DNA from: Desulfobulbaceae bacterium
GTDB lineage: Bacteria > Desulfobacterota > Desulfobulbia > Desulfobulbales > Desulfocapsaceae
Assembly (NCBI GenBank): GCA_024636345.1
Contig: JAGXHG010000004.1
Coordinates: 1-64,000, forward strand
Length of the DNA: 64,000 bases
Direction of reading: 5' to 3'
The notes under the pieces are model-generated. The model did no database searches and had not been told where the DNA came from. It saw nothing but the letters and a program-made list of their open reading frames with translations. This document shows, in pieces, positions 1 through 3,579 of the stretch; the first letter of the stretch is position 1; every line of letters begins with the position of its first letter. Made by a program: the position numbers and the translations under genes.

Positions 1-223
1 CACCCTAACAGTGTTGATTTATTCAATCACAGGTGAAATATTTTTACTAGGAATTTCAGGGGAAGAATTAAAAAGATGCCAGTGGCAAGGTTAAGCATTT
101 GAGCAGAACGGCAACTTTAGCTTCTTCCTGATAAGGTTGCTGGCCAATATACGTAACAAATTCCACTCGGCCCAAAGTCCAGAGTCGAGTAGCCCGGGGG
201 AATCTCACCCCCAGGCTCTCACA

Positions 224-257
224 GATCCGGACGTGAGCCTCTCAACTCATCCGGCTC
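224..257 (-). ncRNA. Group II intron domain V
   Basis: This 34-nt hairpin begins GAGCCGG and carries the AGC catalytic triad, a two-base CG bulge on the 3' arm and a GAGA (GNRA) tetraloop, all standard for domain V, the catalytic core of a self-splicing group II intron. It begins immediately after the maturase stop codon, so the reading frame uses all of domain IV up to the domain V boundary. Confidence 0.9.
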
Positions 258-1682
258 CTATTGTCCAGCCGAAGGCCGCATACCAAGTATCTGCCAATGG
301 GCAAATAGCTGTGGTTGTAGAAGAGCTATACGCCCTAACCAATGCGTTGCTCTCCGTTGGCGCCCTCTCAAATTCTTATATTTCCTCATGGCCCATTTTG
401 TTATCATGCGATTCAGGATGTGAAACACCTTATACATCTCTGATTTGTAAAACTTCGCATAATAATTGATCCATCCTCGTAGCTTGGGGTTGAACATTCG
501 TGAGAAGTCCTCAAGGGATTTGTCCGTTCGGTTATGAATCCGCCAACTCCGCATCTCGTCACGTATTAATTTGGATGCCTTGTTACTCATGGCAGGCAGG
601 AACCCGACAAAGAGGCTTTCCTTCTTACTCATTGCAACCCGTGGCCTGAAAGTATAGCCCAGGAAGTCAAATGTATAATTTGGGTAATCCCTTCGTCTAT
701 CGTCTTCCTTACAGTAGACAATCTTTGTTTTCTCGGGATGTAACTCCAGCCGACACTCCATGAGTCGCCGCTCAATTGCAACACGTAACCTTTCAGTTTG
801 CGATTCACTACTGCAATGACAAACCACATCGTCAGCATATCGCTCGAACAGGACTGCCGGAAAAGCACGTCCCATCCATTTGTCAAAGGCATAATGCAGA
901 AACAGATTCGCCAGCAAGGGACTTACAACCCCACCCTGTGGAGTTCCTTTGCTCCTCGTTTCAATTGATCCATCTGGATACTGAACTGGACATTTCAGCC
1001 ACCGCTCAACATACATCAGGACCCATCGGCAATCTGTATGCTGCCGCACAGCCTTCATCATGAGCTCATGGTCGATATTATCAAAGAAACCCTTGATATC
1101 GAGATCCAACACCCACGGATTCCGCCAACATCGTTGACGTGCCACCCCAACCGCCTCTACGGCAGACTTACCCGGACGATATCCGTATGAGTCTTCATGG
1201 AAATACGGATCAATCAGGGGTTCCAGGAGTTGTTTAACTACCATCTGGGCGATTCGATCAGCCACTGTCGGTATTCCCAACAGCCGCTTCTTACCATCGC
1301 CTTTTGGTATCTCGACTCGACGCACCGGAGGGGGAAAATAACTCCCCGAGGACATACGATTCCACACTTTGTAGAGATTATTTTTCAAATCCTCTTCAAA
1401 GTCGGCTATCGACTGCCCATCAACTCCAGCTGCTCCGCGATTTGCCTTTACTCTCTTAAATGCCTCCCAAACCTGATTCTTGGAAATCTGGAATGGCTTT
1501 GCTTCCTTCAAAAAGATCCTCCCAAATTCTGGTTGTCTTAATGCTAAAAGCTGAACAATGTAGCCCCTTCGCTCCATCTCCATTACAGAAATTTCGTCAC
1601 TACTACAGGCTACTCCGCCCCTGTGCTCCGCATCGGTACTCTCATCCTCATGGGTTCTCCACTTGGATTTCTCCCTTAACAT
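258..1682 (-). CDS. ltrA: Group II intron reverse transcriptase/maturase
   Basis: A 474-residue intron-encoded protein that assists splicing and copies the intron RNA into a new DNA site. The fingers-palm reverse transcriptase blocks are complete: the DLDIKGFFDNID block near residue 193-204, TPQGGVVSPLL near 247, and the catalytic YADD at about 282-285. A group II maturase (domain X) region follows, with RGWINYYAKF and a basic tail. There is no HNH endonuclease domain, so this is an endonuclease-minus type that would depend on other DNA ends for priming. The upstream ATG gives an unusual acidic N-terminus; MEMERRG at residue 35 is an alternative start. The frame is intact, so the intron could still be active. 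Confidence 0.93.
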   Translation of the reverse strand: MLREKSKWRTHEDESTDAEHRGGVACSSDEISVMEMERRGYIVQLLALRQPEFGRIFLKEAKPFQISKNQVWEAFKRVKANRGAAGVDGQSIADFEEDLKNNLYKVWNRMSSGSYFPPPVRRVEIPKGDGKKRLLGIPTVADRIAQMVVKQLLEPLIDPYFHEDSYGYRPGKSAVEAVGVARQRCWRNPWVLDLDIKGFFDNIDHELMMKAVRQHTDCRWVLMYVERWLKCPVQYPDGSIETRSKGTPQGGVVSPLLANLFLHYAFDKWMGRAFPAVLFERYADDVVCHCSSESQTERLRVAIERRLMECRLELHPEKTKIVYCKEDDRRRDYPNYTFDFLGYTFRPRVAMSKKESLFVGFLPAMSNKASKLIRDEMRSWRIHNRTDKSLEDFSRMFNPKLRGWINYYAKFYKSEMYKVFHILNRMITKWAMRKYKNLRGRQRRATHWLGRIALLQPQLFAHWQILGMRPSAGQ

Positions 1683-2084
1683 CGGAACGACAGGTTCCCA
1701 CGTTCCCCACGAAAGCCAATATCATGTTCACGCCACCTTTATGCCGGTCACCACTCGGGCAATAAACAGGCTCCCCCCGAACTTATCCTGGGATGGAAAT
1801 AGTTCCCAGTTTTGATGACATCTTTATTTTTTCGACACCTCATCAGTGGTTCATTGTCATTCGTCTCCATGATCCACACCTGGTCCGATCTTGCCGGACC
1901 TTTTCCTTAACGCTCACCACCATGGCTCTTTACCACAGCAGCTTAAGGTGGTTTGGAGTCTGCTCCTGCAAGCCGACCCCGAGGGACCTACCCTCATCTT
2001 TCGTGCAGCCTCGTGGCGCACTATTTCCAAAAAATGTTGACTAAACGATGAGAAGATTCCCCTGCCTTTCAAAAGGGTCCCCCA

Positions 2085-2378
2085 TCAGCAACCGCACGCT
2101 GATGGTTTTTTCCCGGTAACCTTGGCAAGCCAACTGTTGAGGATATAACGTGCACAACCACAACCATCATCGGGATTGACAAAAATGGCCCCAACAGGAC
2201 AGTTCGTGGCACAGGCCCCGCATTCCATACAGGCATCATAGTCGACAATGGTCGCCTTTTTTTCCATACATTTGAAAACCCGATGCGGACAGACTATCTC
2301 ACACATTCCGCAACCGATACAGACAGCCTGGTCGAGTTTGAGAATTGCCGCACCATCTATATATCTGAACTTTTCCAT
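2085..2378 (-). CDS. hgcB: HgcB, ferredoxin of mercury methylation
   Basis: HgcB is thought to keep the HgcA corrinoid in the reduced Co(I) state and to help hand over Hg(II). From the ATG at 2378 the product has 97 residues, close to the usual size of about 95. Two CxxCxxCxxxC clusters (Cys 20, 23, 26, 30 and Cys 50, 53, 56, 60) will bind two [4Fe-4S] centres. The family's extra cysteine lies in the GCGCARY segment near residue 73, and the protein ends CGC, matching the C-terminal cysteine pair proposed to bind mercury. The frame is open further upstream, but that part overlaps hgcA, and MEKFRYI matches how the family starts. The ATG is 10 bases past the hgcA stop codon, so the two are cotranscribed. 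Confidence 0.95.
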   Translation of the reverse strand: MEKFRYIDGAAILKLDQAVCIGCGMCEIVCPHRVFKCMEKKATIVDYDACMECGACATNCPVGAIFVNPDDGCGCARYILNSWLAKVTGKKPSACGC

Positions 2379-2388
2379 GATGTATTTC

Positions 2389-3579
2389 TCAAAGAAAAAA
2401 TGGCCCAGCAAGCCAGCAGAGCAGGCCAAGCAGGGCAGAAACGATCTGTATTGCCAGTCCTTTGCGCATTTCCATTTCAACTCCGGAAAGCGAGGTATAG
2501 GGAGTGGAGCCAGTGAAGTTCATGGCCAGAAAGGAACTGACACTCATTGCCCATAAGGCCATGCCGGTCAGGGCAATCCAGCCGACAAAGGGCAAAAACC
2601 GCAGAACGGTAAAAATTGCGACCAGAATCCCGAGAAGCAGTCCTTTGAGCCAAAACTGCCTGCCGGGTATCCAGGGCAGCAGAAGTGGGACCAGAACAGC
2701 TCCGGCAAGAACGCTTATAATTGTCACCAGGATAATGCTTCCACCTCTATGCAATGCATGGTCCAGCGAATAAATATCCGGGCCGAAACCGGAGAACAGA
2801 ACCAGGCAGACAAGGGTGAGAGTAAGCGGTTTCAGGAGTAAAAAAATTTCCAAAGGGATCAAAACCGCGCGTTCCTTCAGGTTGAAAGTGACACTGCGCA
2901 TAGTCTCGTCTACCATTTTGCCGCCAGCCAAAAATGGCCTGATATCAGTTGCCCTGATCGGGCCGAATGTACCCTTGAAACCGCAGGCTGTTTTCAATTT
3001 CAAGGCAGAGACTCCAGGAGCTCCACATTGCGGAAGAATGAGTTCGCGGTGGCTGACCACTTCCATAAGTTTTGCCCGCTGGACCTGATAGGCTATTTCT
3101 TCAGTGGAAAATGTTCCTTTACCTGCTGCGCACCAGACGTTGATGCCTCTGGTATCAACCACCAGTATCCAAACATTCATCCCTCCCAGTTCATTACGCA
3201 GGGCATCAAAAGTCAATTTGTAATTGGCGGTAACGAGGACGGGCGAATCGGCGGTTGGCTTGCCGACACAATACAGTCCAGGCGTTATGGTGTACTTGTC
3301 ACGCTGAATACCGGTTCGCGCTCCGATCGTCCCAATATGATCAGCCCGGCTCAGAACAGTATCAACCTGCGGCACCGAGCCTACCTGTGAGTCGATAAAA
3401 CCGCTGACAAAAGGATAGATGGCGTATCCTGCCAGTTCATGCTCCCCGGACCGGGGTTCCGTTTTTGGACCTCAGCAGACTCCGGCATCGACTTCCGGCG
3501 GCGGAGCTAAATGCAGCGAAGAGGATGCAGGGTTTGCCGATTTTGGGAAACTGGAAAGAGGTTGAAATGATTGAGTCAT
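2389..3579 (-). CDS. hgcA: HgcA corrinoid protein, candidate selenoprotein
   Basis: HgcA is the membrane-bound corrinoid methyltransferase that makes methylmercury. The cap-helix signature NVWCAAGK is present, with the cobalt-ligand Cys at about residue 150 in this numbering, preceded by SPVLVTANYKLTFDALR and followed by about five membrane helices. The first ATG/GTG/TTG after the last in-frame stop is GTG at 3375, but the conserved AIYPFVSGFIDSQVGS segment lies upstream of it in the same frame. That segment is joined, through a UGA at 3474-3472, to an ATG at 3579. The UGA follows a Cys codon (...DAGVC-UGA-GPK...). Read as selenocysteine it gives a 396-residue protein. A SECIS-like hairpin follows. 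The HgcA identity is firm; the start and Sec36 are inference. Shine-Dalgarno support at 3579 is weak. Confidence 0.9.
3444..3474 (-). promoter_or_regulatory. In-frame UGA with SECIS-like hairpin
   Basis: The UGA codon is at 3474-3472. Fifteen bases later comes a hairpin of five G-C pairs, CCCCG at 3456-3452 and CGGGG at 3448-3444, closed by the loop GUC. The apical loop begins 20 bases after the UGA and has G then U at its start, which fits the loose bacterial SECIS pattern: a short stem with a G in the first two loop positions, 16-37 bases from the UGA. SelB binding is not demonstrated and short GC hairpins are common, so this supports the selenocysteine reading without proving it. Confidence 0.55.

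Follow-up and report, generated by a model that had tools for sequence, protein, structure and literature searches.

HgcA produces methylmercury, and in the window analysed here, a stretch of 64,000 nucleotides from a member of the Desulfobulbaceae, the hgcA gene is interrupted by an in-frame UGA. The locus raises the question of whether this codon ends translation or is read as selenocysteine (Sec). Based on comparison with related sequences, we consider it very probable (about 95%) that the gene encodes a Sec-containing HgcA of 396 residues, in which SelB- and hairpin-directed decoding of the UGA would put Sec next to a Cys in a flexible arm near the N-terminus.

The hgcA gene and its internal UGA codon

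The reading frame of hgcA begins at ATG 3579-3577, runs through ...PEVDAGVC to the UGA at 3474-3472, and continues as GPKTEPRSGEHELAGYAIYPFVSGFIDSQVGSVPQV to the stop codon ending at 2389 (minus strand; Table 1). This frame had been proposed in a first-pass annotation made without database searches, and its coordinates proved exact on re-reading. The ORF reading likewise agreed with that annotation in finding no ATG, GTG or TTG between the UGA and GTG 3375-3373, the earliest such codon on its 3′ side.

Table 1. Positions in the window of hgcA, hgcB and the elements associated with the internal UGA.
Feature	Position	Strand	Remarks
hgcA with internal UGA	2389..3579	-	396 residues if UGA is Sec; NCBIfam NF040863
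UGA, proposed Sec codon (residue 36)	3472..3474	-	Cys or UGA in aligned relatives
UGC, Cys35 of Cys-Sec pair	3475..3477	-	Frame reading
SECIS-like hairpin CCCCG-GUC-CGGGG	3444..3456	-	Sequence reading; stem scores; covariation in relatives
GTG, first conventional start past UGA; residue 69, within predicted beta strand	3373..3375	-	
hgcB	2085..2378	-	ATG 2378 by count inside longer ORF 2085-2480; NCBIfam NF040864

The predicted protein matches the NCBIfam HgcA family with 421.3 bits (cut-off 275) and contains the cap helix with its conserved cysteine (NVWCAAGK), C150, which is present without exception in the 20 sequences aligned. The HgcA model (20 sequences; mean pLDDT 82.2) has strands at residues 58-64 and 67-72 and, after the corrinoid domain, five long helices spanning residues 234-395 that are predicted to be transmembrane. 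Query residues 78-217 correspond to the homologous corrinoid-binding domain of the large (gamma) subunit of the corrinoid iron-sulfur protein (PDB 2h9a and 2ycl), a match that starts past the Sec arm and stops ahead of the membrane helices. Codon positions 1, 2 and 3 upstream of the UGA differ 27, 13 and 43 times among five close relatives. The third position thus varies most, which indicates that the coding pattern extends upstream of the UGA. The third-position excess is weaker between the UGA and the GTG (15, 20 and 30 in the same relatives).

Conservation of the UGA codon and of a SECIS-like hairpin

One scan of the genome collection gave 292 relatives, the best 80 of which yielded 79 loci. 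Adding the window brought the set to 80 sequences; 79 of them contain the cap motif, and the one without it (L065) was dropped. In these 79 alignable HgcAs (best 80 of 292 relatives), the column of the UGA is occupied by UGA itself in 43 and by Cys in 30, the remainder being Arg (2), Gln (1), Tyr (1) and gaps (2). The gaps are contig ends, and the Gln row is from a locus (L047) with stops nearby and an unreadable arm. The usual context at the pair is CUGPK in the UGA type versus CCGP or CCGS in the Cys type. Position 36 of aligned homologues, where the first-pass annotation had suggested looking for Cys or UGA, is therefore mostly one or the other, and the lack of an aligned residue in relatives, which it had named as contrary evidence, was not what was found.

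Bacterial SECIS elements, according to a 2026 review, have a loop of 3-9 nt located 16-37 nt past the UGA, with G in one of its first two positions, and at least four pairs (PMC13188914). In the window, the stem CCCCG (3456-3452), loop GUC (3451-3449) and CGGGG (3448-3444) form five pairs, with the stem 15 nt and the loop 20 nt past the UGA, so the position and agreement with the bacterial limits claimed for this hairpin are both correct. When the 50 nt from the UGA were folded alone, 142 of 200 shuffles folded equally well or better (z = +0.61). The hairpin of the window stands above chance only against relatives, by the fixed position of the loop and by stems that exceed synonymous-codon shuffles.

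Stems were scored as the best contiguous stem within the bacterial SECIS limits in each sequence, and the mean was compared with synonymous-codon shuffles. Among the best 80 of 292 relatives, the UGA set (n=43) scored 15.33 versus 10.36±0.46 for the shuffles, none of 200 being as high, while the Cys set (n=30) scored 8.10 versus 8.56±0.54, with 162 of 200 as high. A free search over 16-37 nt placed the loop 18-20 nt past the UGA in 43 of these 43 UGA-HgcAs, whereas the 30 Cys-HgcAs had it at 13 different positions. A scan of the phylum provided a second UGA set, with L147 and L148, whose genomes are already represented by L005 and L009, omitted; this set scored 16.39 versus 9.79±0.47 (0 of 300 shuffles as high; n=44, still including four UGAs later rejected). 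The rejected UGAs, those of L222, L227, L230 and L234, were judged by context and low stem scores to be unrelated stops. For 38 of the 40 accepted sequences of this set, the free search put the loop at 17-22 nt; for L137 and L152 it was 24 and 25 nt, respectively. With loop positions 17-22 searched, 80 of all 83 accepted sequences have at least four pairs and three have shorter stems, with 54 distinct stems in total.

Covariation was assessed in 29 sequences that make up the largest register group and were picked for sharing one register. Of the cells in this group, 90.1% pair (64.8% when shuffled) and 47 have two-sided changes (13.7 when shuffled), and the covariation score is 0.654, compared with 0.212±0.031 for shuffled and at most 0.227 for slid alignments. 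Two of the seven measures are weak, namely how many pairs show double changes (6 versus 5.3 expected; 227 of 500 shuffles) and how many further pair types occur (16 versus 13.4; 26 of 500 shuffles). The compensatory changes that the first-pass annotation had suggested seeking downstream of the UGA are thus present in this group.

The machinery for Sec insertion, for which a search had also been suggested with absence of selB or selC as contrary evidence, is present in the genome of the window, where selA, selB, tRNA-Sec (selC) and selD were all found, each above cut-off. The selD gene (L099, contig C9:23604-24545) itself contains one in-frame TGA and so probably encodes a selenoprotein too, of a known kind. 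In the phylum scan, selB is above cut-off in 45 of 45 genomes with a UGA-HgcA, that of the window included, and in all six genomes added later; in the first count, 6 of 109 HgcA genomes were without selB and none of the six had the UGA (Fisher one-sided 0.045). Among the best 80 of 292 relatives, selB is above cut-off in 38 of 42 UGA genomes versus 32 of 37 others, and the four UGA genomes without such a match are all titled draft MAGs. Across the phylum selB is widespread (353 of the 395 genomes scanned), so its presence is weak support for Sec and does not discriminate.

If the UGA were the true stop of a short upstream ORF, HgcA would be made from GTG 3375 and the hairpin might regulate translation. 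A start at this codon falls inside predicted strand 67-72 and loses strand 58-64 together with the invariant residues G51, V58, F61 and G67, and sister HgcAs have Cys at the codon aligned with the UGA. In one relative (L116), no ATG, GTG or TTG occurs from its UGA to 60 residues ahead of the cap Cys. We regard a downstream start as very unlikely, even though AGGTAGG, resembling a ribosome-binding site, lies 4 nt ahead of GTG 3375, the match to the NCBIfam HgcA model sets in at residue 69 of the protein read through the UGA, and numbering of the published HgcA of model strain ND132 (P. mercurii) begins at a GTG past the place where the UGA is expected (PMC5038027, PMC7305189).

There is still less to recommend decoding of the UGA through an altered genetic code, by a suppressor tRNA or by leaky read-through. 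The open frame on either side of the UGA agrees with it and nothing further was found in its favour; against it, the aligned residue elsewhere is mostly Cys, both hgcA and hgcB of the window end in a UGA stop, and tRNA-Sec, selA, selB and selD accompany a hairpin that covaries. The chance of an assembly error or a decayed gene is similarly minimal. The window is from a draft genome (83.1% complete), but the remainder of the hgcA frame is intact, and the homologous UGA is found in 42 of the 78 alignable relatives' loci other than the window (best 80 of 292) and in 20 of 20 full-length loci from the genus draw described below. The same UGA in dozens of separate assemblies makes a sequencing error or a lone pseudogene, both of which the first-pass annotation had put forward as possible refutations, very unlikely.

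We infer that the hairpin, with its loop 20 nt downstream, would direct SelB and its Sec-tRNA to decode UGA 3474-3472 as Sec. Such SelB/SECIS-directed insertion is strongly supported by comparison, with the UGA/Cys exchange, the covarying SECIS-like hairpin and the sel genes all in favour of the Sec reading that was originally suggested.

Distribution of probable Sec-type HgcA and the proposed start of the ND132 protein

Matches to the HgcA alignment at E≤0.001 were found in 295 of the 395 phylum genomes, although many of the weak ones (about 1e-15 to 1e-20) are probably other corrinoid proteins. The 116 loci fetched (110 and a further 6) cover the listed matches of at least 310 bits other than the window and a few partial ones below. 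Among the matches listed, the homologous UGA is present in 44 of these 116 loci, 42 of the 110 and 2 of the 6 (L240 and L241). L241 has another in-frame TGA a few codons past the usual UGA and may be a broken gene or an assembly fault. The Sec-type relatives include L016, from the culturable Desulfopila aestuarii. A second clade also has the UGA, usually as CUP. The order is reversed to UC in L128, L136, L142 and L143, and the UGA has no adjacent Cys in L135, L137, L144, L157 and L195.

A tree of 186 sequences (91 with Sec) requires at least 17 changes of the Sec state, whereas 200 label shuffles need 52 or more; as judged from this tree, Sec in HgcA is an inherited yet repeatedly exchanged state. 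Absent from the tree are the opposite-strand loci of the genus draw, six duplicates, L047, L057 and L068, together with 8 of the first 110 loci fetched in the phylum scan; L207, cut at a contig end, was scored as non-Sec. The six loci added later, including L240 and L241, lie outside both the tree and the stem tests.

The genus draw comprised 36 genomes around a Pseudodesulfovibrio MAG, and also includes one (G042) with a locus titled Salidesulfovibrio. Matches were found in 22 of the 36 genomes, and exactly one TGA is present in 20 of 20 full-length HgcAs. In G057 the TGA is located on a second contig piece, and G100 has only short hgcA-like remnants (L123, L125). The numbering of ND132 HgcA begins at a putative GTG start (PMC5038027) and its cap Cys is residue 93 (PMC7305189). 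In the 20 full-length loci of the draw the UGA is 114 residues ahead of the cap Cys, which would place it 22 codons ahead of the published ND132 start. The codon at the place of that start in 21 loci of the draw is GTG in 12, GTC in 7 and GTT in 2. The published GTG start therefore looks like an internal valine, 22 codons past such a UGA. None of the 21 loci matches all 19 published residues of ND132, the best (L103 and L107) matching 16 each, so ND132 is not among them and we infer this for ND132 from its relatives.

Possible role of the Cys-Sec arm and relation to known selenoproteins

The Cys-Sec pair (residues 35-36) lies in a coil of the HgcA model, in which residues 31-40 have a mean pLDDT of 61, consistent with a flexible arm. 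Together with the variable length of the upstream region, this coil suggests that the Cys-Sec pair sits on a mobile arm preceding the corrinoid domain. Given selenol chemistry, and by analogy with the tail of HgcB, our guess is that such an arm might bind Hg(II) or CH3Hg+ or pass it on close to the corrinoid, or act as a thiol/selenol redox pair. The C-terminal cysteines of the HgcB tail (Cys94/Cys95) are thought to bind or pass on Hg (PMC7305189). Hg methylation has been obtained in E. coli lysates containing recombinant ND132 HgcAB (PMC11588087); should the recombinant HgcA begin at the GTG, methylation in this system does not strictly require the arm, which argues against an essential role.

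A broader proposal, to which we give somewhat less than even odds, is that native HgcA in much of the phylum, ND132 included, has in the Sec arm a functional part that has been overlooked. Flexible and bearing both selenol and thiol, the arm would handle Hg(II) or methylmercury as a complement to the cysteine tail of HgcB, and it would be absent from HgcAs numbered from the published GTG. In variants whose Cys has shifted to the other side of the Sec (UC) or been lost (lone U), selection would act to keep the Sec. If the native HgcA of common methylators has such an arm, selenium supply could affect methylation, biochemistry on GTG-started HgcA would miss a possible metal-handling part, and annotations starting past the UGA would hide the arm.

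The probable Sec-HgcA of the window is not new in kind. Although the first-pass annotation was unaware of an established selenoprotein HgcA, one was already in print: HgcA (NF040863, motif CU) and HgcB (GVGU) are tabulated as selenoprotein families in the 2026 review (PMC13188914), and the source cited for selenoprotein HgcA is Haft & Gwadz 2023 (PMC11588087, PMC13188914). The window has the same family and the same Cys-Sec motif, and no difference was found. In contrast, the UC order and the Sec without adjacent Cys of second-clade relatives are not mentioned in the line of that table (PMC13188914). Cys-type HgcA (CCGP/CCGS) shares domains and pair position with the window, but Cys replaces Sec and there is no downstream stem excess. 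Possible additions are the covariation test, the second clade with its UC and lone-U variants and the internal valine of ND132; no title on any of these was found in the literature searched, a scope that did not extend to Haft & Gwadz 2023. The interest of Sec-HgcA lies in how broadly it is spread in evolution, in the covariation and in a statement on ND132 that can be put to the test.

The hgcB gene is directly downstream of hgcA (100.0 bits, cut-off 99). Sec in the HgcB of the window was considered and rejected, the Cys73-equivalent being Cys. Of 101 loci, 21 gave no legible hgcB (one strand read, or contig ends), and among the 80 readable ones a single HgcB, that of L081, has a UGA at this position; the HgcA of L081 is without a CC or CU pair. 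A plasmid search gave no result. Directly downstream of hgcB is a group II intron (184-1995, minus strand; two Rfam matches) that contains a maturase ORF (258-1682; TIGR04416). A perfect 8-bp inverted repeat, seen by eye at 2082-2105, overlies the 3′ end of hgcB, includes its UGA stop and is possibly a terminator.
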